A stretch of 40,969 nt of DNA from the NCBI GenBank assembly GCA_017623935.1, contig JAGAOC010000086.1:1-40969 (forward strand). Reading direction: 5' to 3'. Below the pieces are notes generated by a model, which was not told where the DNA came from, ran no database searches, and saw only the letters and a program-made list of their open reading frames with translations. Position numbers and translations under genes: made by a program. The DNA comes from Agathobacter sp. Lineage in GTDB: Bacteria; Bacillota; Clostridia; Lachnospirales; Lachnospiraceae. The number at the start of each line of letters is the position of its first letter. Position 1 is the first letter of the stretch. Positions 7,857 through 40,933 of this stretch are shown one piece after another.

Positions 7857-7864
7857 AATCTCTC

Positions 7865-10828: not shown

Positions 10829-10866
10829 TGTACTGATGTTTTTTAACGTAGAGGAGGTGGATATAT

Positions 10867-11001: not shown

Positions 11002-11030
11002 GCCACAGTTTTGTGGTCTTTTCTTCTTTT
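11001..11030 (+). terminator. Probable attenuator between rpmH and rnpA
   Basis: GGCCACA (11001-11007) pairs with TGTGGTC (11012-11018) across a 4-nt loop with one G-U pair, followed by TTTTCTTCTTTT. The stem is short, so partial termination is likelier than a full stop. It would set a high L34 to RnpA ratio. Confidence 0.6.
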
Positions 11031-11057
11031 ATGGTTAATTTGAGAAGGAGATTTTCT

Positions 11058-11405: not shown

Positions 11406-11435
11406 AAATTGAATTGAAAAGAAGATGGAATCATT

Positions 11436-11645: not shown

Positions 11646-11655
11646 TGGAGGTTTT

Positions 11656-12924
11656 ATGTCGGGCATTGTATTAACGGCTTATTCCGGAGCCATTTTAGGA
11701 CCTATTGCAAAGTTCTTAGGTTGGATCATGAATGGAATATACATTGCGATGTATAAACTGTTCGGTATTGAGAACGTTGGTTTAAGTATTATCTTACTTA
11801 CTGTTCTTATTTACATGTGTATGCTTCCTCTGACATACAGACAGCAGAAGTTTTCTAAATTTATGCAGAAAATGCAGCCTGAATTGAATGCGATCAGAGA
11901 AAAGTATAATGGTAAGACAGATCAGGCTTCTGCCATGGCCATGCAGCAGGAAACTCAGTTACTTTATGATAAGTATGGTGTTTCTCCATCTGGTTCTTGT
12001 GTTCAGATGTTGATCCAGATGCCAATCTGGTTTGCACTTTACCGTGTATTTTATAACGTTCCTGCTTATATCGGAAGCGTTAAGGATCATTTTAGTGGAC
12101 TTGTTAGTGGAATCACAGCAACAGAAGGTTTTACTGATACTTTAACAACTCTTATGAGTGACCTTAAGATTTCCACAGCAACTGTTGATCTTACAACTTC
12201 TGGTGATACATTAAATAATTATATTATTGATCTGCTTTACAAAGTTCCATCTACAGGATGGGATAAAGTAACAGAAGCTTTTCCACATTTAGCAGATTCT
12301 GTTACAACATTAGTGTCTCACATTGATAATTTTAACTATTTTATTGGTCTTAATATTTCTGATACTCCTTGGAATATTATTACTACTAATTTCCAGAGTC
12401 ACAGTTATGGATTTGTTATTTTAGCACTTTTAATTCCAATAGCTGCATATGTAAGCCAGTTATTGAACTTAAAGCTTATGCCTCAGACTGGTGCAGAGAA
12501 TGATCAGATGGGTCAGCAGATGAAGATGATGAACACTATGATGCCATTGATGCAGCTGTTCCTTTCATTTACTGTTCCTGTAGGTCTTGGTCTTTACTGG
12601 ATCTTCAGTGCTGTGTGCAGAGCTGTTCAGCAGTTTATCCTTAACAAACATTTTGAAAAAGTTGATATGGATGAACTTATCCGTAAAAATCAGGAAAAAG
12701 CAAAGATCAAACGTGAGAAAAAGGGAATTAGTGAGAATCAGATCCGTCAGGCAGCTGCTATTAACACAAAGACTATTGCAAACAAAGCAAATACCAGCAC
12801 AAGTGCTCAGAGAGAGTTAGAACTCGAGAAAGCAAATGCTGCTAAAGCTAATGCAAAAGAAGGCAGTCTGGCATATAGAGCTAATATGGTTCGCGAATTT
12901 AATGAAAGAAATTCTCGTAAATAG
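11656..12924 (+). CDS. yidC: YidC/Oxa1-family membrane protein insertase
   Basis: This 422-residue insertase has an N-terminal hydrophobic segment, the cytoplasmic hairpin LTYRQQKFSKFMQKMQPEL after the first conserved TM, then the TM segment with the IQMPIWFALYRVFYNVP motif, and C-terminal TMs (FLSFTVPVGLGLYWIFSAVCRAVQQFI). An external loop of roughly 110 residues rich in Thr/Ser/Asp separates the TMs at about residues 130-250, larger than in bacillary SpoIIIJ. No lipobox cysteine is present near the start. The C-terminal tail is basic and Ala/Asn rich. The ATG at 11656 with a GGAGG site is chosen over an upstream ATG inside yidD. Confidence 0.94.
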   Translation: MSGIVLTAYSGAILGPIAKFLGWIMNGIYIAMYKLFGIENVGLSIILLTVLIYMCMLPLTYRQQKFSKFMQKMQPELNAIREKYNGKTDQASAMAMQQETQLLYDKYGVSPSGSCVQMLIQMPIWFALYRVFYNVPAYIGSVKDHFSGLVSGITATEGFTDTLTTLMSDLKISTATVDLTTSGDTLNNYIIDLLYKVPSTGWDKVTEAFPHLADSVTTLVSHIDNFNYFIGLNISDTPWNIITTNFQSHSYGFVILALLIPIAAYVSQLLNLKLMPQTGAENDQMGQQMKMMNTMMPLMQLFLSFTVPVGLGLYWIFSAVCRAVQQFILNKHFEKVDMDELIRKNQEKAKIKREKKGISENQIRQAAAINTKTIANKANTSTSAQRELELEKANAAKANAKEGSLAYRANMVREFNERNSRK

Positions 12925-12937
12925 GGGGTTAGGTGTA

Positions 12938-13561
12938 ATGGAATTTATTGAAGTATCTGCTAAAACTGTAGATGATGCAATCACTGAGGCTTCTATCAAA
13001 CTTGGAACTACCAGTGATAAGATTGAATATGAAGTTATTGAAAAAGGAAGCACAGGTTTCCTTGGAATTGGAAGCAGAAATGCTGTGATCAAAGCTCGTA
13101 AGAAATTTACAGCTGAAGGAGAAGTTTTAGAGTTCTTAAATAATGTTTTCCGCGCCATGGATATGGAAGTGGAAGTTTTAGTCAATGTTAATGAAAATAA
13201 CCATCAGATCGACGTTGAATTAAAGGGAGATGAGATGGGAGTCCTGATCGGAAAGAGAGGACAGACTTTAGATTCTTTACAGTATCTTACAAGTCTTGCT
13301 ATTAATAAGAATTCCGAAAACTATTACAAAGTTAAGGTTGATACAGAGGATTATAGAAAGAGAAGAAGAGAGACTCTTGAAAATCTTGCTAGAAACATTG
13401 CTTATAAAGTTAAGAAGACAAGACGTCCTGTTGACTTAGAGCCAATGAATCCTTTTGAGAGAAGAATCATTCATTCTGCTTTACAGAATGATAGATATGT
13501 AACAACTCACAGTGAGGGAGATGAACCTTACAGACATGTTGTTGTAACCTTAAAAAGATAG
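12938..13561 (+). CDS. khpB: KH/R3H RNA-binding protein KhpB (Jag)
   Basis: A 207-residue protein with three domains: Jag-N (MEFIEVSAKTVDDAITEA, then GSTGFLGIGSRNA), a type II KH domain (GVLIGKRGQTLDSLQYL near residues 104-120), and R3H near the C-terminus (MNPFERRIIHSALQ). It binds RNA with KhpA and affects cell elongation and division in Gram-positive bacteria. The ATG at 12938 was preferred because the upstream extension lies inside yidC and the family begins MEFIEV. It follows yidC by 13 bp and ends just before a promoter-terminator overlap. Confidence 0.95.
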   Translation: MEFIEVSAKTVDDAITEASIKLGTTSDKIEYEVIEKGSTGFLGIGSRNAVIKARKKFTAEGEVLEFLNNVFRAMDMEVEVLVNVNENNHQIDVELKGDEMGVLIGKRGQTLDSLQYLTSLAINKNSENYYKVKVDTEDYRKRRRETLENLARNIAYKVKKTRRPVDLEPMNPFERRIIHSALQNDRYVTTHSEGDEPYRHVVVTLKR

Positions 13562-13567
13562 TATAAT
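13539..13567 (+). promoter_or_regulatory. Candidate mnmE promoter overlapping the jag terminator
   Basis: TTGTTG (13539-13544), 17-nt spacer, TATAAT (13562-13567). The expected start near 13574 falls inside the 5' arm of the terminator hairpin. Confidence 0.5.
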
Positions 13568-13569
13568 AG

Positions 13570-13600
13570 GTGGGTATCCTTTGGATATCCACTTTTTTTT
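13570..13600 (+). terminator. Terminator after jag
   Basis: A 10-bp stem GTGGGTATCC/GGATATCCAC (13570-13579 and 13583-13592, one G-U pair) with a TTT loop and eight T residues. It separates rpmH-jag from mnmE-rsmG. Confidence 0.92.
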
Positions 13601-13615
13601 GAAAGGAATTAAATT

Positions 13616-14992
13616 ATGAAAACTGATACAATTGCAGCAATTGCAACTGCCATGAGCCCTTCCGGAATTGGTATTATTCGGTTAAGTGGAGAAGAGGCTT
13701 TTTCCATTGTGGATAAAATATATCGTTCTAAGTCTGGAAATAAGAAGTTAAGTGAATGTGAAAGTCATACGATCCATTATGGGTACATTTATGATGGAGA
13801 TACCTTGATTGATGAAGTTATGGTTCTTCTTATGAAAGCTCCTCGTTCTTATACAACAGAGGATACTGTGGAGATTGATTGTCATGGTGGAGTCTTTGTT
13901 ATGAAGAGGATCTTAGAGACCGTGATCAAATATGGCGCCAGACCAGCAGAACCAGGAGAATTCACAAAGCGCGCATTTTTAAATGGAAGGATTGATCTGA
14001 CTCAGGCGGAATCTGTTATTGATGTGATCAATTCCAAGAATGATTTTGCTTTAAGAAGTTCTACTCAACAGTTAAGGGGGACTTTGAAGCAGGATGTAAA
14101 GGAAGTTCGTGATAAGATCATTCATGAGATTGCTTTTATCGAATCTGCCTTAGATGATCCAGAGCATATTTCTTTGGAGGGTTATCCTGAAAGTTTATCT
14201 TCTATTGTAATGGAGCAGATTGCTCATGTGGATAAACTTCTTGCAAATTCTGATAACGGCCGTATGTTAAAAGAAGGAATCATGACGGTTATTGTTGGAA
14301 AACCAAATGCAGGAAAATCTTCTCTTCTCAATCAGATGATGGGAGAGGAGAGAGCCATTGTAACAGATATTGCCGGAACTACTCGTGACGTTTTAGAAGA
14401 GCAGATTCAATTAGGAGGTATTACTCTTAATATCGTGGATACTGCTGGAATTCGTGATACAGAAGATATTGTGGAAAAAATAGGAGTAGATAAGGCTAAA
14501 GATTATTTATCAAAAGCTGATTTAATAATTTATGTTGTGGATTCTTCTGTTGCTCTTGAGGAAAATGATTACGAGATCATGGAACTTTTACAGGATAGAC
14601 AGGCAATCGTATTGTTAAATAAGACGGATCTGGAATCTGTTGTCACAGAAGAAGAGGTGAGAAATCATCTGGATAAGAAGATGATCGCTTTTTCTGCAAA
14701 AGACAGTACTGGAATGGAAGAATTAGAGGAGACTATTAAGGATATGTTCTTCAAAGGAGAAGTTTCTTTTAATGATGAAGTAATTATTACGAATATCCGG
14801 CAGAAAAATTCTTTACAGGAAGCTAAGAATAGTTTAAATTTAGTATTGCGTAGTATTGAAGATGCTATGCCGGAAGATTTTTATTCTATTGATCTGATGA
14901 ATGCTTATGAGTCTTTAGGAAATATCATTGGAGAATCAGTAGAAGATGATCTGGTAAACGAGATTTTCAGTAAATTCTGTATGGGTAAATAA
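13616..14992 (+). CDS. mnmE: tRNA modification GTPase MnmE
   Basis: MnmE of 458 residues: N-terminal folate-binding domain (DTIAAIATAMSPSGIGIIRLSG), helical domain, inserted GTPase domain with P-loop GKPNAGKSSLLNQ near residue 225, DTAGI (switch II) and NKTD, and the C-terminal CMGK motif whose Cys is needed for the reaction. With MnmG it installs the 5-carboxymethylaminomethyl group on wobble U34 of certain tRNAs. AAGGAA precedes the ATG. It leads a compact mnmE-mnmG-rsmG set. Confidence 0.97.
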   Translation: MKTDTIAAIATAMSPSGIGIIRLSGEEAFSIVDKIYRSKSGNKKLSECESHTIHYGYIYDGDTLIDEVMVLLMKAPRSYTTEDTVEIDCHGGVFVMKRILETVIKYGARPAEPGEFTKRAFLNGRIDLTQAESVIDVINSKNDFALRSSTQQLRGTLKQDVKEVRDKIIHEIAFIESALDDPEHISLEGYPESLSSIVMEQIAHVDKLLANSDNGRMLKEGIMTVIVGKPNAGKSSLLNQMMGEERAIVTDIAGTTRDVLEEQIQLGGITLNIVDTAGIRDTEDIVEKIGVDKAKDYLSKADLIIYVVDSSVALEENDYEIMELLQDRQAIVLLNKTDLESVVTEEEVRNHLDKKMIAFSAKDSTGMEELEETIKDMFFKGEVSFNDEVIITNIRQKNSLQEAKNSLNLVLRSIEDAMPEDFYSIDLMNAYESLGNIIGESVEDDLVNEIFSKFCMGK

Positions 14993-15010
14993 GAGAAAAG
15001 AGGTTATATT

Positions 15011-16939
15011 ATGCCTGCAATTCAGGAAAATTATGATGTTTGTGTAGTTGGAGCAGGACATGCTGGATGTGAAGCTGCATTAGCATGCGCAAGACTTGGA
15101 TTGGAAACTATCATTTTTACAGTAAGTGTTGATAGTATTGCGTTAATGCCATGTAATCCAAATATTGGTGGAAGTTCCAAAGGACACCTGGTAAGAGAGA
15201 TTGATGCTCTTGGTGGTGAGATGGGAAAGAACATTGATAAGACTTTTATTCAGTCAAAAATGCTGAATAAGTCCAAAGGTCCAGCTGTACATTCTCTCCG
15301 CGCACAAGCAGATAAAGCGGAATATAGCAAACAAATGAGGAAAACTATGCAAAATACGGATCATTTAACCATCCGTCAGGCAGAAGTTTCTGAAATTATT
15401 ACCAATGATAAGAATGAGATCACTGGTGTTAAGACTGTATCTGGTGGAACTTATTTTTGTAAAGCAGCTATCTTATGTACAGGAACTTATCTTCGTGCAA
15501 GATGTCTGACTGGAGAGATGATCACTCATACTGGTCCAAACGGTCTGCAAGCTGCAAATCATTTAACAGATTCTTTGATCGCTCATGGAATCGAGATGTA
15601 TCGTTTCAAAACCGGCACACCTGCCAGAGTAGATAAGAGAAGTCTTGATTTTTCAAAAATGCAGGAGCAGGTGGGAGATGAGAGAGTAGTTCCATTTTCT
15701 TTTACCACGAATCCTGATGATGTGCAGATTGACCAGGTATCTTGTTGGTTGACTTATACGAATCCAAAGACCCATGAGATCATTAGAAATAATCTGGATC
15801 GTTCTCCAATCTATGCGGGTATCATTGAAGGTACAGGCCCAAGGTATTGTCCTTCTATTGAAGATAAAGTAGTAAAATTTGCAGAGAAAGACAGACATCA
15901 GATTTTTATTGAGCCGGAAGGGTTAGATACCAATGAAATGTATGTTGGTGGAATGTCTTCTTCCTTGCCAGAAGATGTGCAGCATGCCATGTATCGGACT
16001 TTGCCAGGTCTGGAAAATGTTAAGATCGTTCGAAATGCTTATGCAATTGAATATGATTGTATCAATCCAAATCAGCTTTATGCTTCTTTGGAATTTAAAA
16101 ATGTTCCAGGACTTTTCAGTGGTGGACAGTTCAATGGAAGTAGTGGTTATGAAGAAGCAGCTTGTCAGGGTCTGATAGCAGGAATCAATGCTGCTATGAA
16201 GATTCAGGGAAAAGAGCCTTTGATCTTAGACAGATCGGAAGCATATATTGGAGTATTGATCGATGATCTTGTTACAAAAGAAACTCATGAACCATATCGT
16301 ATGATGACTTCGAGAGCAGAGTACCGATTATTGCTTCGTCAGGACAATGCGGATCTGCGTCTCAGTAAGAAGGGTTATGAAGTTGGACTTATCTCAGAAG
16401 AAAGATATAACTGGGTTTGTGAAAAAGAGCAGTTGATCGAAGAAGAGATCAAACGTTGTCATGAAGTAAGAATTGGTGCTTCAAAAGAAGTTCAGGAATT
16501 TTTAGAGGAGCATGACAGTATTCCATTAAATACAGGAACAACTTTAGCAGAGTTGATCAGAAGACCAGAATTAGAATATGATATGTTGGCACCGATCGAT
16601 CTGGAGAGACCAGAGCTTTCTTATGAAGTTACAGAGCAGGTTAATATTTTGATCAAATATGATGGATATATTAAACGTCAGATCAAGCAGGTAGAACAGT
16701 TCAAACGATTAGAGAAGAAAAAACTTCCACAGAATTTTGATTATAATGAAGTAGCAAGTCTTCGTATTGAGGCAGTTCAGAAATTGAACCAGTTACAGCC
16801 TTTATCAATTGGACAGGCTTCTCGAATCTCAGGTGTTTCCCCTGCAGATATTTCTGTACTTTTGGTTTATCTGGAACAGTTAAAATATTTAAATCCTGAT
16901 TTATTTTCTAAATTAAATGTAGGTAAGGAAGAGGATTAG
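15011..16939 (+). CDS. mnmG: tRNA uridine 5-carboxymethylaminomethyl modification enzyme MnmG
   Basis: This 642-residue FAD protein starts with the dinucleotide-binding motif [14 protein letters not shown] and has the GidA signatures [29 protein letters not shown] and [16 protein letters not shown], ending in the helical MnmE-binding domain. Catalytic cysteines are expected within CNPNIGG and [14 protein letters not shown]. It is the partner of MnmE in U34 modification. Start ATG at 15011 after AGAGG. rsmG begins one base after its stop. Confidence 0.97.
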
Positions 16940-16940
16940 C

Positions 16941-17657
16941 ATGAAGTATGATTTAAGTTACTTTGAAGAGCAGTTAAAAAAGTATCGGATTACTTTAACT
17001 GAGAAACAGAAAGAGCAGTTCATTACATACTATGAGATGTTAGTAGAAAAAAACAAAGTAATGAACCTTACTGCTATCACTGAATTTGATGAAGTGTTAG
17101 AAAAGCATTTTCTTGATAGTGTCAGTTTAATCCAGGTATGTGATCTGAAGCAAAATTTATCTGTGATTGATCTGGGAACAGGAGCTGGTTTTCCGGGAAT
17201 TCCTCTTAAGATCATATTTCCGGAACTTCAGATTACTTTGGTAGATTCCTTAAATAAGAGAATTGGCTTTTTAAAGGAAGTGATTGAAGCACTTGAATTA
17301 GTGGGAATTGAGGCAGTTCACTGTAGGGCAGAAGAGTTTGCTCATAAGAAAGAATATAGAGAAGCCTTTGATCTGTGTGTTTCCAGGGCTGTTGCTAACT
17401 TATCCACTTTATCAGAGTATTGTCTTCCTTTTGTGAAGGTAGGAGGAAACTTTATCTCCTACAAATCAGGAGAATGTGATGAAGAGGTGGCTGCTTCTAA
17501 GAAAGCAGTTTCTATTCTCGGAGGAGAGATAAAGGATATTTATAAATTTACCTTAGGTGATTCTGGAAGAGCTTTTGTTACTATTCAGAAAACAAAGCGT
17601 ACACCGAAGTCTTATCCAAGAAAAGCAGGAACTCCTTCTAAGATGCCGATTTCATAA
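16941..17657 (+). CDS. rsmG: 16S rRNA (guanine527-N7)-methyltransferase RsmG
   Basis: A 238-residue class I SAM methyltransferase. Motif I is VIDLGTGAGFPGIPLKI near residue 74, preceded by the family stretch KVMNLTAITEFDEVLEKHFLDS, and followed by CVSRAVANLSTLSEYCLP. It methylates G527 of 16S rRNA; loss in other bacteria gives low-level streptomycin resistance. It is the last gene of the mnmE operon, ending before a strong terminator. Confidence 0.96.
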   Translation: MKYDLSYFEEQLKKYRITLTEKQKEQFITYYEMLVEKNKVMNLTAITEFDEVLEKHFLDSVSLIQVCDLKQNLSVIDLGTGAGFPGIPLKIIFPELQITLVDSLNKRIGFLKEVIEALELVGIEAVHCRAEEFAHKKEYREAFDLCVSRAVANLSTLSEYCLPFVKVGGNFISYKSGECDEEVAASKKAVSILGGEIKDIYKFTLGDSGRAFVTIQKTKRTPKSYPRKAGTPSKMPIS

Positions 17658-32299: not shown

Positions 32300-33616
32300 T
32301 TAATACGTATAGTAGCGACCGGTTACACTGTTCTGACCCCATTCGCCATAGCCGCAGTCGCCGCCCATTCCGTCGGCCCAGCCTTTCTGGCCATCCATAT
32401 AAAGTTCACACCACTGGTGAGTATATTGATTTTCATTTACATGAGTCCAGGAATATCCCATACAATCTAAGACAAGTCCTAAAGCACGAGTAGATCCGGC
32501 ACAAGAGTATTCACCCTTTACAAAAACACCATAGGCAGTTCTGTAATCTTTACCAGACATGGTATAGGTATCATTTGCACAGTAGCAGGCAACAATGTAG
32601 GCTGCTACATAGACTTTCTCTCTGTCAGTAGTACCATAAGACAATGCAGCTTCTGCAATTTCTTTTGCAATAACCTTTGCAATGGCATCTTTGTCAGCCT
32701 GGGTGTTAAAGCAGGCTTTTCCATTTTTAATGGTATATGTATGTCCATCGTATGTAAATGATCCGGTATAATTGAAATTAACTCTACTGTTTTCACAGTA
32801 TAAGAAATCACTGTTCAGTTGAACTAAGCCATCATACTTAAAGGTAATTCGGCCGCCTTCTACATACCACCAATCGGAGGCTTTTTTGGCGAAACCGTAA
32901 TAATCAAAGTCAATCTTACCGTTCTTTAAATACCACCAGCCGTTTTCATTCTTAGCAAGTCCGGTAAAACTGAAATTGACTTTACCATTTTCTACGCGCC
33001 ACCAGCCGGTAGAATTCTTAGCGATACCGGTGTAAGAAAAGTCAATCTTACCATTCTTTAAGTACCACCAGCCATTAGCATTTTTAGCAAGTCCGGTGAA
33101 ATTGAAATTAACTTTACCATTCTCTACACGCCACCAAGCGTTAGAATTTTTAATGATACCGGTGTAAGAGAAATCAATCTTACCATTCTTTAAGTACCAC
33201 CAACCATTTTCATTCTTAGCAAGTCCAGTAAAATTGAAATTGACTTTACCATTTTCTACGCGCCACCAACCGGAAGCGTTTTTAATGATACCGGTGTAAG
33301 AAAAGTCGATCTTACCATTTTTCAGATACCACCAGCCATTAGAATTCTGGGCGAGTCCGGTAAAATTGAAATTGATCTTACCATTTTCCACACGCCACCA
33401 ACCGGTAGAATTCTTGACGATACCAGTGTAAGAAGTATCAACCACTCCATTCACATAGTAGTACCAATTGCCATCAGAGGCTTTTTGGAGTCCTGTGACA
33501 GAAGTATTTTGTGCCACAGCAGTGGTGCTTTGAGTGTTTTCGTCTGCAAGGACTGGTTGGGACACCCCAAGACCCACGAGACCTGCAAGAACAAGTACGA
33601 GTAATTTTTTTCTCAT
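32300..33616 (-). CDS. Secreted protein with cell-wall-binding-type repeats and transglutaminase-like domain
   Basis: 438 residues. A signal peptide (KKLLVLVLAGLVGLGVSQPVLA, cleavage after about residue 24) is followed by about ten 22-residue aromatic repeats (from residue 64) of the type TGxxKNxxGWWxVENGKxNFNF, related to choline/cell-wall-binding repeats. The C-terminal domain (about 300-438) is transglutaminase-like, with catalytic Cys372 in YSCAGST, His400 in THQWCEL and Asp415 in WADGMGG. It probably binds the cell surface by the repeats and acts as a cross-linking enzyme or cysteine protease outside the cell. The ATG at 33616 has an AGAGGG site; the frame continues upstream without one. 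Transcribed against replication as a single gene. Confidence 0.85.
   Translation of the reverse strand: MRKKLLVLVLAGLVGLGVSQPVLADENTQSTTAVAQNTSVTGLQKASDGNWYYYVNGVVDTSYTGIVKNSTGWWRVENGKINFNFTGLAQNSNGWWYLKNGKIDFSYTGIIKNASGWWRVENGKVNFNFTGLAKNENGWWYLKNGKIDFSYTGIIKNSNAWWRVENGKVNFNFTGLAKNANGWWYLKNGKIDFSYTGIAKNSTGWWRVENGKVNFSFTGLAKNENGWWYLKNGKIDFDYYGFAKKASDWWYVEGGRITFKYDGLVQLNSDFLYCENSRVNFNYTGSFTYDGHTYTIKNGKACFNTQADKDAIAKVIAKEIAEAALSYGTTDREKVYVAAYIVACYCANDTYTMSGKDYRTAYGVFVKGEYSCAGSTRALGLVLDCMGYSWTHVNENQYTHQWCELYMDGQKGWADGMGGDCGYGEWGQNSVTGRYYTY
32900..33427 (-). repeat. Eight 66-bp repeats arranged as four 132-bp dyads
   Basis: Within the secreted protein gene two unit types alternate strictly: A (GWWRVENGKxNFNF) and B (GWWYLKNGKIDFSY). 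There are four A-B pairs, 132 bp each, very similar at DNA level, followed by two diverged units (32768-32899). The pattern shows the pair, not the single unit, as the last unit of duplication. Confidence 0.9.
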
Positions 33617-33717
33617 AGTTTTCCCTCTCTTTTTATTTATTTGTATAGTTATTGTGAAAAATTTCACATTTGCTATTAAAATTAATATGAAATCCCTTAT
33701 GAAAAGAAATTCATATA

Positions 33718-34935
33718 CTAATCAATTGGATGAGAAAGTATCTCAATCAGTATTTTAACAACAGATTCCATGCTTTCGACGCAAATATGCTCATACGGAC
33801 CGTGGAATCCATATCCACCAGTTCCTAAGTTTGGACAAGGCAGCCCCATGAAAGAAAGTCTTGCACCATCTGTTCCACCTCGGACAGGACGGGAGACTGG
33901 GGAAATCCCAATAGAGGATATGGCGCGTTTTGCGAGATCCACAATATACATATGATCTTTCATAATAGAGATCATATTCTCATAGGAATGTGTGATGGTA
34001 AGGGTTACGGTGCCTGCACCGTATTTCTGGTTCATCTCTACTTCAATGGTACGAAGACGATTCAATCGGGATTCGAAGATATCCTGATCGTGATCTCGGA
34101 CAATATAGGATAGATTAGCGGAAGCTACATCACCCTTCATATCTGTAAGATGGTAAAAACCTTCTCTATCACAAGTGTGGGAAGGGGTCTCATCCTCTGG
34201 AAGCATAGAAGCAATCTCACAGGCAACTAATGCAGCATTGATCATAATATCCTTGGCCTCTCCAGGATGCACATTCACCCCGTGAATCTCAAAATCAGCA
34301 CTGGCGGCATTAAAATTCTCGTAAGCAATCTCGCCTTCATAATCTCCATCTACTGTATAGGCGTAATCTGCTTTAAAATAATCCAGATCAAAATGATCCG
34401 GTCCCATGCCTACTTCTTCATCAGGAGTAAAACCTACCCAAATATCTCCATGTGGTATCTTATTCTGGATGATCTGTTCTAATGCAGTCAGGATCTCTGC
34501 GATTCCAGCTTTATCATCAGCACCTAGAAGAGTAGTCCCATCCGTGGTGATCAGCGTCTTTCCTACGGAAGATATAAGATCAGGAAAATCAGATACCTTT
34601 AGCACAGAGCCATTGCCTGGAAGGATTACGTCTTTTCCATCATAGTTAGCAAGGATCTGAGGTTTAACATCTTTTCCAGAGTAATCGGGAGCAGTGTCCA
34701 TGTGGGCGATCAGACCAATGGCTTTTTTCCCTTCCATACCAGAAGTGGCAGGGAGTAGTCCATAGACATAGCAGTGATCAGTCAGGATAACAGAAGACAG
34801 TTCTAAGTCTTTTAATTCCTGCTCTAATTCCTTACCTAGAGCAAACTCTCTATCGCTGGTAGGGATATTCTGACCTTCTTCATCAGAAGTGGTCCAATAG
34901 GACACATATTTTAGAAATCTTTCTTGAACTTTCAT
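33718..34935 (-). CDS. pepT: Peptidase T (tripeptide aminopeptidase)
   Basis: 405 residues, M20-family zinc aminopeptidase that releases N-terminal residues from tripeptides in the cytosol. Visible motifs are LIAHMDTAPDYSG (zinc His and Asp), TTDGTTLLGADDKAGIAEI (bridging Asp), GFTPDEEVGMG (catalytic and metal Glu), and RPVRGGTDGARLSFMGLPCPNLGTGG with the terminal HGPYEHICVES (metal His). The family length is usual. GAAAGGA precedes the ATG at 34935. No clear promoter for it was found; the upstream spacer carries the divergent tRNA-Lys promoter. Confidence 0.96.
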   Translation of the reverse strand: MKVQERFLKYVSYWTTSDEEGQNIPTSDREFALGKELEQELKDLELSSVILTDHCYVYGLLPATSGMEGKKAIGLIAHMDTAPDYSGKDVKPQILANYDGKDVILPGNGSVLKVSDFPDLISSVGKTLITTDGTTLLGADDKAGIAEILTALEQIIQNKIPHGDIWVGFTPDEEVGMGPDHFDLDYFKADYAYTVDGDYEGEIAYENFNAASADFEIHGVNVHPGEAKDIMINAALVACEIASMLPEDETPSHTCDREGFYHLTDMKGDVASANLSYIVRDHDQDIFESRLNRLRTIEVEMNQKYGAGTVTLTITHSYENMISIMKDHMYIVDLAKRAISSIGISPVSRPVRGGTDGARLSFMGLPCPNLGTGGYGFHGPYEHICVESMESVVKILIEILSHPID

Positions 34936-35051: not shown

Positions 35052-35124
35052 GCGCCTCTAGCTCAGCTGGCAGAGCACCTGACTCTTAATCAGGGTGTCC
35101 AGGGTTCGAACCCCTGGAGGCGCA
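35052..35124 (+). tRNA. tRNA-Lys(CUU)
   Basis: Perfect acceptor stem GCGCCTC/GAGGCGC with discriminator A, D-arm AGCTCAGCTGGCAGAGC, anticodon stem CTGA/TCAG with loop giving CUU (codon AAG), and T-arm CCAGGGTTCGAACCCCTGG. CCA is not encoded. Confidence 0.97.
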
Positions 35125-35129
35125 CTACG

Positions 35130-35176: not shown

Positions 35177-35245
35177 TGTGTAAGGAAAAATTATGCAATC
35201 TTCAATAAATCTTAATATTTTTTTCCTTTCAGATTAATGTTTAAG

Positions 35246-35254
35246 TGGTACAAT
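35246..35254 (+). promoter_or_regulatory. Extended -10 promoter of the Dlt-like operon
   Basis: TGGTACAAT (extended -10 with TG at 35246-35247 and TACAAT at 35249-35254); the -35 is poor. It lies 33 bp before the TTG start of the first gene and argues against a GTG start at 35245. Confidence 0.55.
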
Positions 35255-35286
35255 TTACCGGAATCACAAATGAAAGGAGCAAGAAT

Positions 35287-36804
35287 TTGCAGAATGTAAG
35301 CAATGTACTGGAATATCTGGAAAGAAACTGTGCAACCTGCGGTGATAAGATTGCAGTAGAGCAGGAAGATATCCAGTTAAGTTATAAAGAATTAACAGAA
35401 GCAGCCAGAAAATTTGGAAGTGTCATTGCAAGAGAGACCGTTTCCAAAGAACCTGTAGTAATTCTGGCAGAAAAAAGTCCTTTGACTTTGGCAGCAATGT
35501 TTGGTACTGTATATGCTGGTTGTTTTTATGTACCAGTGCATCCACAGATTCCTGTAGAGCGAATTGAAAAGATCCTTCATGTTTTAGAGGCAAAGGTTGT
35601 AGTAACAACTTTGGACATGGAAGACAAGCTGAAGGAATGTGGATTTGAAGGAAGTTCTATTTACATAGAAGAAATTCAGTCAAAAGAAGTGGATGAGGCA
35701 GAACTTGAGGCACGAAGAGCTGGGGCAGAGGAGACGGATAATCTCTACGGAATCTTTACTTCCGGTTCCACAGGAACACCGAAGTGTATCGTAGTAAGTC
35801 ACAAAGCAGTTATCGATTTTATCTCTCATTTTACAGAGATCTTCGGAATTACTGGAGAAGATAAGATTGGAAATCAGGCACCATTTGACTTTGATGTATC
35901 TGTAAAAGATATTTATAGTTCCTTAAAAGAAGGAGCGACTCTGGTATTGATCCGAAAGGAGTTGTTCGCTTTACCTCCGGGGTTGATCGATTACCTCTGT
36001 GAGAAGAAAGTGACCACTTTGATCTGGGCAGTTTCTGCATTATGTCAGATTTCCGGATTAAAGGGATTTGATTATCGAGTTCCGGAGCAGATCAAGACAG
36101 TCATGTTCAGCGGAGAGAGTATGCCAGTGAAACAGCTGAATATCTGGAGAAAGGCTTTGCCGGACGCAATGTTCGTAAATCTTTACGGACCAACAGAGAT
36201 CACCTGCAACTGTACATATCATATTATTCGAGAAGAATACACCAATGGAAGCAAACTTCCAATCGGAAAACCATTTCCTGGAAGAAATGTATTTCTGTTA
36301 GACGAGAACCGACAGGTGATCACACAGCCAGGAAAAGCAGGAGAGATCTGTGTAGCAGGAGAGTCCATTTCCGGAGGATATTATCATGATCCAAAGCAGA
36401 CAGAAGAAAAATTCATTTTCTATGGAGAAGAGAAAGCTCTTACATACTGCACCGGAGATATGGCATTTTTAGGGGAAGACGGACTTCTCTATTTCGAGGG
36501 AAGAAAAGATTTCCAGATTAAGCACATGGGACACCGAATTGAGTTAGAAGAGGTAGAAAATGCCATCAACAACTTGGAAGGAATCACCAGATGCTGCTGT
36601 GTTTTCCAGAAGGAAAGAAACAGGATCCTGGCATTTTACATGGGAAGTGAAGCTTCCGGTAGTTTAAGAAAGATCTTAAAGGACAAGCTTCCAATCTACA
36701 TGGTGCCAAGTAAGATGATTCAGGTAGAAGAGGTTCCATTATCTAAGAATGGAAAAGTGGACAGAAACTACTTTAAACAGAAAGTAATGGAGGAATACTC
36801 ATGA
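35287..36804 (+). CDS. DltA-like amino acid adenylation enzyme (carrier protein ligase)
   Basis: 505 residues, ANL superfamily. Core motifs in order: YGIFTSGSTGTPK (A3 P-loop), FDFDVSV, NLYGPTEIT (A5), YCTGD (A7), EGRKDFQIKHMGHRIEL (A8) and the catalytic Lys in LSKNGKVDR (A10). It would activate an amino acid with ATP and load it on the carrier protein encoded at 37998. Overall it looks like D-alanine:carrier ligase, but the Cys that favours D-Ala in DltA (FCGE) is Ser275 here (FSGE), so the substrate may differ. Start TTG at 35287 with AAAGGAG 7 nt upstream; the frame extending to GTG would overlap the promoter. It overlaps the decarboxylase gene by 4 bp. Confidence 0.85.
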   Translation: MQNVSNVLEYLERNCATCGDKIAVEQEDIQLSYKELTEAARKFGSVIARETVSKEPVVILAEKSPLTLAAMFGTVYAGCFYVPVHPQIPVERIEKILHVLEAKVVVTTLDMEDKLKECGFEGSSIYIEEIQSKEVDEAELEARRAGAEETDNLYGIFTSGSTGTPKCIVVSHKAVIDFISHFTEIFGITGEDKIGNQAPFDFDVSVKDIYSSLKEGATLVLIRKELFALPPGLIDYLCEKKVTTLIWAVSALCQISGLKGFDYRVPEQIKTVMFSGESMPVKQLNIWRKALPDAMFVNLYGPTEITCNCTYHIIREEYTNGSKLPIGKPFPGRNVFLLDENRQVITQPGKAGEICVAGESISGGYYHDPKQTEEKFIFYGEEKALTYCTGDMAFLGEDGLLYFEGRKDFQIKHMGHRIELEEVENAINNLEGITRCCCVFQKERNRILAFYMGSEASGSLRKILKDKLPIYMVPSKMIQVEEVPLSKNGKVDRNYFKQKVMEEYS

Positions 36805-37982
36805 AAAGAGAAGAATTAGAAACAGCCATATTAAAGTATGAGACTCCATTTTATGTATATGATCTGGATATTTTAACTCAGGAAATGGCGCGTTTTCGGA
36901 AATGTTTAGGAGAGCAGATCAAAATCTGTTTTGCAATGAAAGCCAATCCTTTCGTAGTAAAGCATATGTCAGAGCTGGCAGATCGAATTGAAGTATGCTC
37001 CATGGGAGAGTTCAAGATCTGCAAGGAGTTAGGAATTGCTCCAGAGAAACTTTTGATCTCCGGCGTGTTAAAAGAAACCAAAGATCTGCCAGAGATCACA
37101 GAGTATTGCGGAACGAGAAGCGTGTATACTGCAGAATCCTTCCAGCAGTTTCAGTATTTGGCAGAATTTAGTCTGAAACAGTCCGAGGAAGTTCATATTT
37201 ATCCAAGACTTACCAGCGGTAACCAGTTTGGTGTAAATAAAGAAGACATCTGCCAGATGATCCGGGCAAAAGCGGATTACCCAATGTTACATATTGATGG
37301 AATCCATTATTTTTCGGGAACTCAGAAAAAGAACAGCAAGGTTATCATGAAAGAATTGAACCTGTTGGATGAATTTTTTGAACAATTAGAAAAAGAAGAA
37401 GGATTTCAGGTGGAGGCCTTAGAATATGGTCCGGGTGTGGGAGTTTCTTACTTCCAGGGCAAAGAAGTTCCTTTATTTGAGGAAGAAGGTTTACAGGAAA
37501 TCGCAAGTCTGGTGCAGAACATGAAGTGGAAAGGCACAGTTACCTTAGAGATGGGACGAGCTTTGAGTGCTTTATGCGGTTATTATGTGACCCAGATCAA
37601 GGATGCCAAGACGAACGAAGACATTAACTACTGTATCGTTGACGGTGGATGTCACCAGCTCAACTATGATGGACAGATCCGTGGAATGTATGTACCAAAA
37701 ATTCAGGTCTTTCCGGAAGATAATGACGGAGAAGAGAAAGAATGGACAGTCTGCGGCTCACTTTGTACATTTAATGATGTTCTTTGCAGTGGATTTAAAG
37801 CAAAGGATCTTTCTATTGGAAAGTTCTTAGCTTTTGAGAGAGTTGGAGCTTACTCCTCTATGGAGGGAATGGCGCTGTTTTTGAGCCATGAACTGCCGGG
37901 AGTAGTGATCTACAGCGAAAAAGACAGCTGGCAGGAAGCCAGAAAGAAAACAGATACTTATAATTTTAATATGTTTAAATAA
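36801..37982 (+). CDS. Fold-III PLP-dependent decarboxylase (LysA/ODC/BtrK type)
   Basis: 393 residues. The barrel domain carries the PLP lysine Lys47 in CFAMKANP, the phosphate-binding GPGVGV (residues 210-215) and EMGR (250-253). The beta domain supplies Cys322 and Asp326 in GSLCTFND, the active-site pair of diaminopimelate and ornithine decarboxylases. All catalytic residues are present. GSLCTFNDVL is closer to the GPLCTPLD-type decarboxylases found in secondary metabolism (BtrK acts on a carrier-bound glutamate) than to LysA. Its ATG overlaps the adenylation gene by 4 bp and the carrier protein gene follows by 15 bp, so it almost surely works with them. Substrate unknown. Confidence 0.85.
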   Translation: MKREELETAILKYETPFYVYDLDILTQEMARFRKCLGEQIKICFAMKANPFVVKHMSELADRIEVCSMGEFKICKELGIAPEKLLISGVLKETKDLPEITEYCGTRSVYTAESFQQFQYLAEFSLKQSEEVHIYPRLTSGNQFGVNKEDICQMIRAKADYPMLHIDGIHYFSGTQKKNSKVIMKELNLLDEFFEQLEKEEGFQVEALEYGPGVGVSYFQGKEVPLFEEEGLQEIASLVQNMKWKGTVTLEMGRALSALCGYYVTQIKDAKTNEDINYCIVDGGCHQLNYDGQIRGMYVPKIQVFPEDNDGEEKEWTVCGSLCTFNDVLCSGFKAKDLSIGKFLAFERVGAYSSMEGMALFLSHELPGVVIYSEKDSWQEARKKTDTYNFNMFK

Positions 37983-37997
37983 GAAAGGGAAAAGATT

Positions 37998-38225
37998 ATG
38001 GAAAAATTATTAGAGATTTTAGAAGAGATTGATGACAGCATTGATTACGAAGCAGAAAAAGCACTGATCGACGATCATTTATTTGATTCATTTGCAGTGA
38101 TCAACCTGGTAAGCGAATTAGAAGACGCATTTGATATTCAGATCGAAGCAAGAGAAATGGTTCCAACTAACTTTAACTCTGCAGAAGCTATGTGGGAAAT
38201 GATACAGAGATTACAGGAGAACTAA
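37998..38225 (+). CDS. Acyl/aminoacyl carrier protein (DltC-like)
   Basis: 75 residues, acidic, four-helix carrier fold. Ser31 in LFDSFAVINLV is the expected phosphopantetheine attachment site. Lys/Glu-rich N-terminal helix and DAFDIQIEAREMVP helix III are as in DltC. A GAAAGG site precedes the ATG. It should carry the amino acid activated by the upstream ligase, and is the possible substrate carrier for the decarboxylase. Distinct from the fatty-acid ACP, which has DSL. Confidence 0.88.
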   Translation: MEKLLEILEEIDDSIDYEAEKALIDDHLFDSFAVINLVSELEDAFDIQIEAREMVPTNFNSAEAMWEMIQRLQEN

Positions 38226-38228
38226 AAA

Positions 38229-39788
38229 ATGGCTTACCATGAGGGATTTTATTTATTCGCTTTTCTGCCTCTGGCATTGATCTGTTATCAGATCGTGGCA
38301 GAAAAACACCGTTGGAAAGTATTGTTGGTATTTAGTTTTATCTATTTCTACTTATTCAGCGGTAACCTGGTGATCTATCTGATCGGAAGCACCATATTGA
38401 CCCATTATGCAGCAATCTGGATCTCCTGGATCAAGATGAAATATACTCAGGAACTTTCGGAAGTGCCGAAGGAACAAAAGTCGGCAATCCGAAAAGCTGG
38501 TCAGAAGAAGCAGCGAATGGTGCTTACGGCAGCAGTTCTCACACTTTTAGGAACTTTGGCATACTTAAAGTATACGAATTTCTTCTTAGAAAATGTGAAT
38601 TCATTACTGGCGAGCCTGAATGTAGATCACAGTTTTGCTATCAGTAAGATTCTCGTTCCGATCGGTATCTCTTTTTATACCTTAGAGCAGATCGGCTACA
38701 TAGCAGATGTATACTGGGATAAGATCGAGCCTGAGAAGAACCTTGGAAAACTGGCATTGTTCTTTGGATTTTTCCCATTAGTCATGGAAGGACCGATCAG
38801 TTCTTATGAGACCGTGTCAAAGTCACTGTTTTCTGGTCAGAAGTTAAGATTTGAGAATTTAAAAGACGGATTCCTTCGGATTGTCTGGGGTCTTATGAAG
38901 AAAATGGTAGTAGCAGACAGGCTCTATATTATAGTAGATAAGATATTTACCAACTATCAGGATTATTCCGGTGTGGTCATTATCTTAGGAGCAATTTGTT
39001 ATACGATCCAGCTTTATATGGAATTCTCCGGATGTATGGATATTGTCATCGGAAGCGGAAAGCTCTTCGGAGTAGAACTTCCTGAGAACTTCAAACAGCC
39101 ATTTTTCTCAAAAAATGCAGGAGAATTTTGGAGAAGATGGCATATTTCTCTGGGAACCTGGTTCAGAACCTACATTTTCTATCCAGTTTCTGTTTCTTCC
39201 CTTGTGAAGAAGTGGAACAAATTCGGAAATAAGAAAGTTGGAAAAAATATCACCAGGATCGTGACTTCCGCCTTTACACTGTTCCCAGTGTGGCTCTGTA
39301 ACGGTCTCTGGCATGGAGCTAATTGGAGCTACATTTTCTATGGAATGTACTATTTCGTCATTCTTATGATCGAGGTCATCGTTGAACCTCTTACCAATAA
39401 GCTGACGAAAAAATATAATCTGGATACTTTGCGTATCTTTAAGACCTGGATCATTATCTTCACAGGAGAGCTCTTCTTTAGAGCGGAGAGCCTGCCAGCA
39501 GGAATAGCCATGTTTACTTCTATTTTCACGGATTTCATTCCGGAAAATCTCGGAAGCATTTCACTGGGAGTTGGATATGCAGATGTATTTGCTATCGTTC
39601 TTGGCTGTGTGATCGTAGGAATTGTCAGCACCTTAAAAGAAAAGAATGTTGACATTCAGGCGAAGGTCTACAGCTTAAAGACACCAGTTCGCTGGGCAGT
39701 TTATTACGCACTGATCTTTATGATCATTATTTTAGGGGCTTATGGTACAGGTTATCAGCCAGTTGATTTAATTTATGCAGGATTTTGA
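38229..39788 (+). CDS. MBOAT-family acyltransferase (DltB-like)
   Basis: 519 residues with about 11 hydrophobic segments. The MBOAT hallmark His is in LCNGLWHGANWSYIFYG near residue 360, with the preceding motif FWRRWHISLGTWFRTYIFYPVS and PISFYTLEQIGY-like stretch (PIGISFYTL). DltB moves D-Ala from DltC across the membrane to teichoic acid; this protein should do the same with whatever the carrier holds. It is longer than typical DltB (about 400) and close in size to alginate-type MBOATs (AlgI/PatA). It starts 3 bp after the carrier gene. Confidence 0.88.
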   Translation: MAYHEGFYLFAFLPLALICYQIVAEKHRWKVLLVFSFIYFYLFSGNLVIYLIGSTILTHYAAIWISWIKMKYTQELSEVPKEQKSAIRKAGQKKQRMVLTAAVLTLLGTLAYLKYTNFFLENVNSLLASLNVDHSFAISKILVPIGISFYTLEQIGYIADVYWDKIEPEKNLGKLALFFGFFPLVMEGPISSYETVSKSLFSGQKLRFENLKDGFLRIVWGLMKKMVVADRLYIIVDKIFTNYQDYSGVVIILGAICYTIQLYMEFSGCMDIVIGSGKLFGVELPENFKQPFFSKNAGEFWRRWHISLGTWFRTYIFYPVSVSSLVKKWNKFGNKKVGKNITRIVTSAFTLFPVWLCNGLWHGANWSYIFYGMYYFVILMIEVIVEPLTNKLTKKYNLDTLRIFKTWIIIFTGELFFRAESLPAGIAMFTSIFTDFIPENLGSISLGVGYADVFAIVLGCVIVGIVSTLKEKNVDIQAKVYSLKTPVRWAVYYALIFMIIILGAYGTGYQPVDLIYAGF

Positions 39789-39799
39789 GGTAATTACTT

Positions 39800-40756
39800 A
39801 TGAAAAAGACGTTAAGAGGTGTACTTTTCTTTGGAATTTTTGCACTGCTTTTAGTGGTGGGATCTGGGATCTTTTCCTGGATCGCCCCTCAGACAGATGA
39901 AAAAGCCCAGTCCAGAAATGCGGCTGTGATCGGAATTCAGGAAGAAGAGGAAAATACAATTGATGTGCTGGTGTTAGGAGATAGTGAGACTTACACTTCC
40001 ATTTCTCCAATGCAGTTATATCAGAATAGCGGAATAACTACATATGTCTGCGGTCAGTCTCAGCAGAGACTTTGCGAGAGCTATTCCCTTTTGAAAACAG
40101 CCTTAAAGACTCAGCAGCCAAAACTGGTAATCTTAGAGACCAACACCTTATTCCGATATAAAGGACAGAATGTAGAGATTGAAAAGGAACTTGGAGAAAA
40201 AGTTTGCTCTGTTCTGCCAATCTTCCGTTATCACTATATGTGGAAACTGCCTTTTGATGGGGAAGAGGCTACCAACACTCAGTACAAAGGCTTCCGACTT
40301 CGTGATAAGATAAAAGCTTATAGCGGCGGAGAGTATATGGTGGAAACTGAGGAAGTAGCAGAGATTCCGGAATGGAATAAGTCCTACATGGAGAATATCA
40401 TCTCTCTCTGTGAAGAAAATAATATAGAGCTTATGTTAGTCAGTGTTCCATCTCCTCACAATTATAATTACAAGGAACACAATGCTCTAGAGCAGTATGC
40501 CCAGGAAAATGATCTGGTCTACTTAGATCTGAACTTAAAGAATGAAGAGCTGGGCATGGACTGGAATAAAGACACCATGGATAAGGGGGATCATTTGAAT
40601 ATCTACGGTGCAGTGAAGGTCACAGACTATATGACAAGCTACCTTCAGGAAAATTATGAGCTAGAAGATCACCGCCAGGATGAAAACTATAAAGAATGGG
40701 GTGTTCTAGCCAAGGAATACGAGGAAAGAATTGGAAGAATCATAGCGAAACAGTAA
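39800..40756 (+). CDS. SGNH/GDSL-type protein, DltD-like partner
   Basis: 318 residues: N-terminal membrane anchor (about 7-28), then an extracellular SGNH domain with VLVLGDSETYTSIS (nucleophile Ser), ILETN (block III Asn) and DKGDHLNIYGA (block V Asp and His). This is the layout of DltD and of AlgJ/AlgX-type partners of MBOAT acyltransferases, which complete acyl transfer outside the cell. It is shorter than Bacillus DltD (about 390). It starts 11 bp after the MBOAT gene with GAGG and ends the operon. Confidence 0.85.
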   Translation: MKKTLRGVLFFGIFALLLVVGSGIFSWIAPQTDEKAQSRNAAVIGIQEEEENTIDVLVLGDSETYTSISPMQLYQNSGITTYVCGQSQQRLCESYSLLKTALKTQQPKLVILETNTLFRYKGQNVEIEKELGEKVCSVLPIFRYHYMWKLPFDGEEATNTQYKGFRLRDKIKAYSGGEYMVETEEVAEIPEWNKSYMENIISLCEENNIELMLVSVPSPHNYNYKEHNALEQYAQENDLVYLDLNLKNEELGMDWNKDTMDKGDHLNIYGAVKVTDYMTSYLQENYELEDHRQDENYKEWGVLAKEYEERIGRIIAKQ

Positions 40757-40760
40757 GAGA

Positions 40761-40857
40761 TGCACTACGTGCAAATAATGCGCAGCTCGCGGAGAAGAAG
40801 TTTATTGCTTTGCAATACCGCTCGCGCGCGGAGATTGCACGGAGTGCAATTTTTTTT
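40761..40857 (+). repeat. Intergenic structured repeat, copy B
   Basis: Starts 5 bp after the SGNH gene. Hairpin TGCAC-TAC-GTGCA (40761-40773), block AATAATGCGCAGCT (40774-40787), the 44-bp block (40791-40834, 43 of 44 identical to copy A) with TATTGC-TTT-GCAATA and CCGC/GCGG, then the terminal hairpin. The hairpin module found in copy A between the two blocks is replaced by CGC here. Confidence 0.88.
40834..40857 (+). terminator. Terminator of the Dlt-like operon, formed by the repeat end
   Basis: ATTGCAC-GGA-GTGCAAT (40834-40850) followed by seven T residues. The last module of repeat copy B thus works as the operon terminator. Confidence 0.85.
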
Positions 40858-40933
40858 ATAAGAGAAAAATTATAGATGAAAAAGGTTATATACGGTACAA
40901 TATAGGAAAATGTTTCATAAATGGAGGGTACTT

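Follow-up and report, generated by a model that had tools for sequence, protein, structure and literature searches.

The window analyzed here is positions 1 to 40,969 of contig JAGAOC010000086.1 from an Agathobacter sp. assembly, and towards its end lie five genes in a single orientation (Table 1): a DltA-like adenylation enzyme (A), a fold-III PLP decarboxylase (DC), a carrier protein (CP), an MBOAT acyltransferase and an SGNH-type protein. The sequence-only reading of this DNA had proposed these five genes in this order, with overlaps or gaps of at most 15 bp and one terminator, and all of this was borne out. A and DC overlap by 4 bp, and the gaps that follow measure 15 bp (DC to CP), 3 bp (CP to MBOAT) and 11 bp (MBOAT to SGNH). 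The hairpin and T-run behind the SGNH gene form a probable terminator (−40.3 kcal/mol, z −4.07, equalled by 0 of 200 shuffled sequences), one that is not among the results of a simple terminator scan. The A gene lies on the plus strand where it had been placed, with an amended start: GTG opens the longest open reading frame (ORF), while an AAAGGAG ribosome-binding site precedes the TTG that is probably the true initiation codon. We saw no sign of a mobile element within the window, in which Pfam finds dnaA, dnaN, gyrB, gyrA, mnmE, gidA and gidB. Relatives occur in 61 records of a plasmid collection, at no more than 29.4% identity among the matches listed.

Table 1. Genes and other features of the decarboxylase-containing operon, in window coordinates
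Feature	Position	Strand	Basis
Adenylation enzyme (A), DltA-like	35287..36804	+	Longest ORF 35245-36804; TTG start at 35287 by reading the sequence
Fold-III PLP decarboxylase (DC), BtrK/VinO type	36801..37982	+	ORF, Pfam/NCBIfam, profile, motif, tree
Carrier protein (CP), DltC-like	37998..38225	+	ORF, NCBIfam, phosphopantetheine serine S31
DltB-like MBOAT membrane acyltransferase	38229..39788	+	ORF, PF03062, H362 in WHG motif
SGNH-type protein in place of DltD	39800..40756	+	ORF, conserved G60/S62/H265
Probable terminator, strong hairpin ending in T-run	40758..40858	+	Folding versus shuffles
tRNA-Lys, anticodon CTT (context only)	35052..35125	+	Directly upstream of A

The three downstream proteins resemble the Dlt machinery to different degrees. 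CP scores 20.2 bits as a phosphopantetheine-binding domain, just below the Pfam cut-off of 20.8, and 32 bits against the NCBIfam DltC model (cut-off 68); its phosphopantetheine serine is shared by at least 97% of 95 rows and by 25 of 25 rows of set A3. The MBOAT protein reaches 136 bits with the NCBIfam DltB model TIGR04091, for which the cut-off is 375, and its only matches among solved structures are to DltB (about 5e-22); the histidine of the WHG motif is conserved across at least 97% of 86 rows. The last protein has an N-terminal hydrophobic stretch and no match in Pfam or NCBIfam, and it is labelled SGNH-type because at least 97% of 89 rows retain each of its residues G60, S62 and H265. 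Its identification as DltD is unsupported, since besides the lack of a Pfam or NCBIfam match, a search of solved structures with its family profile brought up no DltD at E values up to 1.

DC carries the Orn_Arg_deC_N and Orn_DAP_Arg_deC domains of Pfam, with a PLP lysine at K47 and the motif C322-T323-x-x-D326. BtrK had been put forward as a relative of the same fold, and of the solved structures it is indeed the one that the DC family profile matches best (8e-62, against 2.6e-52 for the best chain named diaminopimelate decarboxylase). The motif C-[T/S]-x-x-D is found in 101 of 101 family rows, a set that omits ORFs of 350 amino acids or less (L074, L091), and C-T-x-x-D is also found in BtrK, two VinO-like enzymes and one exosortase-A enzyme, whereas C-E is found in 10 of 15 other superfamily rows, among which the genome's own LysA is counted twice (L031, L039). 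Neither the C-T nor the C-S form is exclusive: L025 and L029 (C-T) and L024 (C-S) fall on the LysA side of the DC tree. In that tree of 46 chosen rows, the family (a clade at 100/100) groups with BtrK, the VinO-like and the exosortase-A enzymes, apart from LysA at 96/88; its join with the VinO-like rows is supported at 92/93 and carries a long-branch warning. DC does not reach the cut-off of the lysA equivalog (152 bits, cut-off 297.9) or that of the exosortase-A decarboxylase model TIGR03099 (164.9 bits, cut-off 478.45). The genome, which is 80% complete, contains a further lysA-type gene (G000:C48:13534-14748; 276.6 bits, just under the cut-off of 297.9). Judged from its sequence, then, DC is not LysA: this identity is ruled out by the low score, the C-T in place of C-E, the tree and the second lysA-type gene; the sequence-only reading had noted that a genome with no other lysA would point to DC being simply diaminopimelate decarboxylase.

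A is an AMP-binding enzyme (PF00501, 215.8 bits) that scores 324.2 bits against the DltA equivalog TIGR01734 and does not reach its cut-off of 559.85. When pocket positions are placed by motif, in GrsA numbering, A reads D235, V236, K239, M299, S301, L322, C330, N331 and K517. This predicted pocket differs from the D-Ala pocket of DltA: three DltA controls (L140-L142; 565, 527 and 435 bits, one of them above the cut-off) read D-L-M..C..V-A, with C301, presumably a feature of the D-Ala pocket, in 3/3. Across 98 DC-linked A rows, S301 is invariant, position 239 is always Lys or Arg, K517 is always kept and D235 is kept in 91, leaving seven without it; pieces under 400 amino acids or 400 bits were dropped beforehand, which leaves L047, L114 and L133 unrepresented and excludes short fragments in L074 and in L106 as well as the distant A of L119. 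The 98 A rows and the 101 DC rows alike contain duplicates, the pairs L058/L122, L093/L126, L101/L127 and L110/L131 being taken as single records because their contigs have the same length. S301 is found in only one of 21 unlinked A enzymes, a lineage that has apparently lost DC. The idea that K239 is confined to DC-linked enzymes fails, for 12 of the 21 unlinked enzymes carry it, including that of the genome's own second Dlt-like set without DC; S301 is therefore the better mark, and a basic residue at 239 does not by itself predict decarboxylation.

The A tree was built from 51 rows of the linked set and the 21 unlinked rows, and the two labels can be explained by 2 changes, against a mean of 18.5 when they are shuffled. 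All linked rows and the one unlinked row with apparent DC loss form a single clade (99/95), with ordinary DltA outside it. The expectation that the decarboxylase would track one clade of adenylation enzymes and not ordinary DltA was thus confirmed, and the predicted pocket of A, with S301 in 98/98, also speaks for the sequence-only reading, which as a whole is partly supported.

The five-gene order also extends well beyond one strain. Of the 536 relatives that a scan found at E 1e-3 or better, 80 were kept, and among 80 named loci reached through DC, all five genes are present in 65. Carriers that can be cultivated include [Clostridium] aerotolerans DSM 5434 (L079) and Schaedlerella arabinosiphila DSM 106076 (L051). 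A is found in 79 of the 80 loci, the sole absence being L052, where the contig starts inside DC, and CP in 72; with longest-ORF starts, A and DC lie no more than 60 bp apart in 75 of the 76 loci where this distance could be measured. Since the gene set recurs in so many genomes, the arrangement is not due to chance. The DC family occurs in 23 of 145 relatives' genomes, the genome studied here included. In five of 22 relatives' loci (L133, L134, L136, L036 and L037), A, DC and CP occur with no MBOAT or SGNH gene that could be recognized; one of the five, L133, is a 12-kb contig in which A is broken. One lineage (G063, L169) has the same A pocket with CP, MBOAT and SGNH and no DC. Many gut bacteria appear to carry a variant of the Dlt system that has been rebuilt around a decarboxylase.

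The two most frequent flanking families, in a 103-locus set that includes one locus without DC (L038), encode a histidine kinase and a response regulator, and most of the others are without annotation. No acceptor could be linked by neighborhood to the operon in the window. At L134, where A, DC and CP occur without MBOAT or SGNH, the neighbors are an acyltransferase-3 gene and glycosyltransferases, which suggests a glycan acceptor; glycosyltransferases also adjoin the trio at L036.

Established here are the genes with their conserved catalytic residues, their co-inheritance, signatures that set DC apart from LysA and A from DltA, and a partial match of A and DC to the VinN/VinO scheme. Together they suggest a route for which we estimate a probability of about 0.58: a Dlt-type surface aminoacylation in which Asp or Glu would be loaded through its side chain, decarboxylated on the carrier to a β-alanyl or GABA group, and passed outward by MBOAT and the SGNH protein, the substrate, product and acceptor all being predictions. 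A would adenylate an acidic amino acid, most likely L-Asp, at the side-chain carboxyl and load it onto the phosphopantetheine of CP. DC would then form a Schiff base with the free α-amine and remove the α-carboxyl, giving β-alanyl-CP; with Glu as the substrate, perhaps in the A clade lacking D235, the product would be GABA-CP. By homology to DltB, MBOAT would accept the acyl group with its terminal amine from CP and bring it across the membrane, and the SGNH protein may attach this group to a glycopolymer or lipid that is secreted or lies at the surface. As far as sequence can tell, the variant probably attaches an amine-ended group other than D-alanine, for example β-alanine.

The order of the first two steps could be reversed, with DC acting on the free amino acid (Asp to β-alanine or Glu to GABA) and A loading the product, which would leave the surface group unchanged. 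The gene set would be identical, and there is a precedent in incednine synthesis, where the PLP decarboxylase IdnL3 reportedly turns β-glutamate into 3-aminobutyrate for an adenylation enzyme selective for 3-aminobutyrate (PMC11284099); the lineage without DC could likewise load β-alanine made elsewhere. We nevertheless consider this order unlikely, as the conserved S301 and basic residue at 239 suggest that A still sees a carboxylate, and the DC family groups with BtrK and the VinO-like decarboxylases. Doubtful to a greater degree is a product that is a secreted small molecule or modified lipid, acylated by MBOAT and the SGNH protein with no polymer decoration. Comparable A-DC pairs do occur in natural-product clusters, both in the two polyketide clusters considered below and as reported in PMC7756342, and the SGNH protein is not DltD; however, DltB is the structure nearest to MBOAT, the flanking histidine kinase and response regulator fit a role in envelope response, and glycosyltransferases adjoin the trio in two loci.

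It is very unlikely that A loads meso-diaminopimelate by its α-carboxyl and that DC removes the distal D-carboxyl to give lysyl-CP and a lysyl surface ester. D235 and K517, the usual residues for an α-amino acid, are kept as counted above, DC falls within the wider LysA superfamily, and K239 could hold the distal carboxylate. In LysA, however, the glutamate of C-E-x-x-D binds the distal amine, and this residue is absent from all 101 DC rows; seven linked A enzymes lack D235, and loading lysine directly would be simpler. That DC is an ordinary lysA sitting by chance in a dlt operon is already contradicted by the four observations on its identity given above and is scarcely credible, despite its assignment by Pfam and NCBIfam to the Orn/DAP/Arg decarboxylase superfamily and the occasional annotation of distant plasmid-borne relatives as diaminopimelate decarboxylase.

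Returning to side-chain loading with decarboxylation on the carrier, a wider version of this proposal is tentative, and we place it slightly below even odds: a pathway shared by many species of gut bacteria that would put β-alanyl or GABA esters on surface polymers, as a cationic decoration distinct from D-alanylation. Its two A clades (D235/K239/S301 and I235/R239/S301) might correspond to two products, and A-DC-CP might be a portable unit that other acyltransferases draw on as well, among them the acyltransferase-3 at L134.

In Gram-positive bacteria it is D-alanylation that determines the charge of the surface and how sensitive the cell is to cationic peptides. High-scoring DltA is rare in the sampled relatives (1 of 140 passes the NCBI cut-off, and 3 of 140 score more than 430 bits). 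Were the proposal correct, many gut commensals would bear a surface amine other than D-Ala, in a cationic decoration chemically distinct from D-alanylation; such β- or γ-amino esters, in which amine and ester are not adjacent, would for that reason probably withstand alkali better. It would also supply a testable sequence rule, in which S301 with a basic residue at 239 marks an A enzyme whose product then undergoes decarboxylation on the carrier, a step known so far, to our knowledge, from antibiotic synthesis. Titles and abstract beginnings in the open-licence literature, preprints excluded, yielded no description of a Dlt-like operon with a decarboxylase or of β-alanyl or aminobutyryl decorations, which is weak evidence of absence.

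Among known systems, DltABCD is likewise a single operon that combines an adenylation enzyme and a small carrier with a DltB-type MBOAT and a protein of SGNH type. The operon described here differs in its added decarboxylase, in scores far below the Dlt cut-offs (DltA 324/560, DltB 136/375, DltC 32/68 bits), in a pocket that reads D-V-K..S..C-N, in an SGNH protein that is not DltD by sequence and in the separation of A from DltA in the A tree. LysA shares the fold-III PLP superfamily with DC and differs in its C-E-x-x-D motif, its tree position and its presence as a separate lysA-type gene. The exosortase-A pair TIGR03098/TIGR03099 is similar in that an AMP-forming ligase overlaps a C-T-x-x-D decarboxylase near glycosyltransferases (Sinorhizobium meliloti, L194), although A and DC score far below its cut-offs (193/592 and 165/478) and no MBOAT-SGNH pair is annotated in the L194 stretch examined. 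A short ORF behind the L194 decarboxylase resembles a carrier protein by eye and has no Pfam match.

In butirosin biosynthesis (BtrI/BtrJ/BtrK), BtrK, the best solved match of the DC profile, shares C-T-x-x-D, whereas the pathway makes an antibiotic and BtrJ belongs to the ATP-grasp ligases rather than to the AMP-forming enzymes; we know of no MBOAT or SGNH partner for this system. Two further pathways resemble the proposed chemistry. In vicenistatin biosynthesis (VinN/VinL/VinO) the adenylation enzyme reportedly loads an acidic amino acid by the β-carboxyl onto a free carrier, and decarboxylation by a PLP enzyme follows once the thioester has formed (PMC11284099); in that of bolagladin (BolO/BolC/BolN), loading by the β-carboxyl and on-carrier decarboxylation have been proposed for BolO and BolN (PMC7756342). 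VinN-like enzymes from two polyketide clusters that also encode methylaspartate mutase place VinN Asp230, Ser299 and Arg331 at positions 235, 301 and 330 of A, where two of the three are matched (Asp and Ser) and Arg331 is replaced by Cys, with K239 as the basic residue instead; the two enzymes used for this mapping themselves have Thr at 301. The operon has D235, the equivalent of Ser299 and C-T-x-x-D in common with VinN/VinO, and while the vicenistatin and bolagladin enzymes feed polyketide or peptide synthases, here the partners are a DltB-type MBOAT and an SGNH protein.

The sequence-only reading described a run of five genes for an adenylation enzyme (A), a fold-III PLP decarboxylase (DC), a carrier protein (CP), a DltB-like acyltransferase (MBOAT) and an SGNH-type protein (SGNH), with overlaps or gaps of at most 15 bp and a single terminator. 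This was borne out in the window: the genes share one strand, a 4-bp overlap is followed by gaps of 15, 3 and 11 bp, and a strong hairpin with a T-run marks the 3' end of the operon. The A start is probably TTG 35287 rather than GTG 35245. Pfam and NCBIfam models name the first four products; the SGNH protein matched no model in either collection, and its G60, S62 and H265 are each present in 97% or more of 89 rows. The window also contains the replication-origin neighbourhood, and the operon therefore lies in origin-proximal chromosome.

Features of the window outside the five-gene operon
Feature	Position (window)	Genes identified	Remarks
Replication-origin neighbourhood	445-17657	gyrA, gyrB, recF-like, dnaN, dnaA, 60-kDa insertase, jag, mnmE, gidA, gidB (by Pfam)	
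Choline-binding-type repeat protein (nine repeat matches; Cys-containing C-terminal part)	32300-33667 (-)		adjoins pepT
pepT	33718-34935		neighbour of choline-binding-type repeat protein

When searched for across genomes, the gene set recurs. Among 145 genomes (relatives and the window's own), 23 have a gene matching the DC family at 6.1e-61 or better; the genes next in rank match at 8.8e-22 and weaker. A adjoins DC (1.5 kb flank) in 21 of the other 22; in the exception, L002, the contig stops at DC. Longer stretches of these 22 loci contain CP in every case and MBOAT and SGNH in 17, the latter two not being found in L133 (where A is split in two on a 12-kb contig), L134, L136, L036 and L037. 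Scanning GTDB species genomes with the DC alignment yielded at least 536 relatives with E values no higher than 1e-3; in the best 80 of these, all five genes are present at 65 loci and the order A-DC-CP-MBOAT-SGNH is kept at 55, with A absent once (at a contig end), CP eight times (five near a contig end), MBOAT six times (all near one) and SGNH eleven times (nine near one). Of the 76 loci where the A-DC distance could be measured, 75 have it at 60 bp or less. In an even sample of the phylum, DC matched at 1e-60 in 6 of 398 genomes, the window's own included, with two far weaker; the set is therefore patchy at large and commoner near the window's genome. Lachnospiraceae predominate among those rows of the A tree that have a named family; Oscillospiraceae, Erysipelotrichaceae, Eubacteriaceae and Butyricicoccaceae are also represented. 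In L074 ([Ruminococcus] faecis JCM 15917), DC (8001-9285) is fragmented, with an in-frame stop near 8730 and a final fragment in a different frame; A is likewise split in two, reflecting either broken genes or sequencing errors.

Absence of another lysA would have suggested that DC is simply diaminopimelate decarboxylase (LysA), an identity ruled out by a separate lysA-type gene, a low lysA score, the active-site motif and the tree. The second gene, at G000:C48 in the window's own genome (80% complete), scores 276.6 bits, just under the 297.9 cut-off, and has the motif C-E-N-C-D; the window DC scores 152 bits. The glutamate of the LysA C-E motif would bind the distal amine of the substrate. 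C-E occurs in 10 of 15 other superfamily rows, whereas the 101 DC-family rows have C-T-x-x-D (94) or C-S-x-x-D (7), and C-T-x-x-D is shared by the butirosin decarboxylase BtrK, two enzymes like the vicenistatin decarboxylase VinO and an exosortase-A decarboxylase. As counter-evidence, L024, L025 and L029 carry C-S or C-T yet sit on the LysA side of the tree. The proposed fold likeness to BtrK held, this being the first PDB match of the family profile (8e-62; chains named diaminopimelate decarboxylase follow from 2.6e-52), and a 46-row tree separates the family from LysA (96/88), placing it together with BtrK, VinO-like and exosortase-A enzymes; the branch to the VinO-like rows carries a long-branch warning. 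One group of uncultured Lachnospiraceae has a LysA-type gene upstream of the operon, 82 bp away in L061 and at about 1.7 to 2.1 kb in L066-L068 and L071; in four of these five loci an SGNH-like gene of the opposite strand lies in between. On the conjugative Geobacillus plasmid pGeo12a (L201:5956-7224), a C-T-x-x-D decarboxylase lies in an odd cluster together with queA, a PqqD-like gene and a pair of thymidylate synthase genes; the annotation shows no adenylation enzyme in the vicinity.

On the co-occurrence question raised by the sequence-only reading, DC tracks a single A clade and not ordinary DltA. In a tree of 51 A enzymes with DC beside them (linked) and 21 without (unlinked), two label changes suffice where shuffled labels need 18.5. 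All linked rows group in one clade (99/95), and the three highest-scoring DltA enzymes (L177-L179) fall outside it, branching deepest under midpoint rooting. A single unlinked row, L169 (G063), lies within the clade, which reads as one DC gain and one loss. In L169 (8652-12880) a DC-clade A is accompanied by CP, SGNH and MBOAT but no DC separates A from CP; the gene has apparently been lost, leaving the A pocket unchanged. The window's own genome has a second Dlt-like set that lacks a decarboxylase (A-CP-MBOAT-SGNH; L038:69-4510, contig 28) and is of a type also present in several relatives; its A falls in a clade neighbouring the linked one, with a pocket (D-A-K..A-G..G-M) that differs from that of DltA.

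On the export side, MBOAT finds DltB structures at about 5e-22 and has a conserved WHG histidine, and a search of the SGNH family against the PDB found no DltD. Of 103 loci, 20 have both a histidine kinase and an OmpR-type response regulator no more than 1.5 kb from the set, and others have them somewhat further off; such neighbours would fit an envelope-response system. In L075, L079, L082, L085, L058, L063 and others the two genes are directly beside the operon on the same strand. Neither adjoins the operon in the window, whose contig ends at 40969. At two loci without MBOAT or SGNH, A, DC and CP have other neighbours: in L134:4098-11795 (G059), A-DC-CP is flanked by an acyltransferase-3 gene, a GtrII-type glucosyltransferase and two family-2 glycosyltransferases, and may serve a different exporter, and in L036, A-CP-DC is adjoined by a family-2 glycosyltransferase and a VanZ-like gene. 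These neighbourhoods point to glycan acceptors and suggest that A, DC and CP make up a separable unit; no neighbours of this kind were found among the genes scanned at L136.

Pocket positions of A were placed by motif and are given in GrsA numbering. All 98 linked rows have Ser at 301, with Lys (91) or Arg (7) at 239 and Asp (91) or Ile (7) at 235. The 21 unlinked rows have Gly (10), Cys (5) or Ala (5) at 301, with Ser only in the DC-loss lineage L169, and Lys at 239 in 12; DltA controls have D-L-M..C. For comparison with the vicenistatin adenylation enzyme VinN, L196 and L200 are plasmid-borne Streptomyces clusters in which an AMP-binding enzyme and a type III PLP enzyme accompany methylaspartate mutase and a type I polyketide synthase. 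Counted from the Asp at 235, VinN Ser299 and Arg331 fall at 301 and 330, where these VinN-like enzymes have Thr and Arg. The linked D235 clade has the Asp and Ser of VinN, but Cys in place of Arg331 and Lys at 239. The shared residues together with this Lys suggest a pocket that would bind the alpha-carboxylate and activate the side-chain carboxyl. A separate A clade (L036, L037, L096, L132, L137-L139), with the order A-CP-DC and the pocket I235-R239-S301, is without the amine-binding Asp and may take a different acid such as Glu. On Sinorhizobium meliloti pSymB (L194:7313-10128), an exosortase-A-associated ligase has an Arg matching Arg331 of VinN, and the decarboxylase that goes with it reads C-T-x-x-D; judging from these motifs, this trio may also produce a carrier-bound decarboxylated acyl group.

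Because the product must retain one carboxyl for the thioester, the substrate needs a second. We favour Asp for the D235 clade, in which A would load it through the beta-carboxyl; Glu for the I235 clade is a guess. Read most economically, the system would be a Dlt-like exporter supplied by a unit resembling the vicenistatin adenylation enzyme, decarboxylase and carrier VinN/VinO/VinL, in which VinO is reported to act after thioester formation (PMC11284099).
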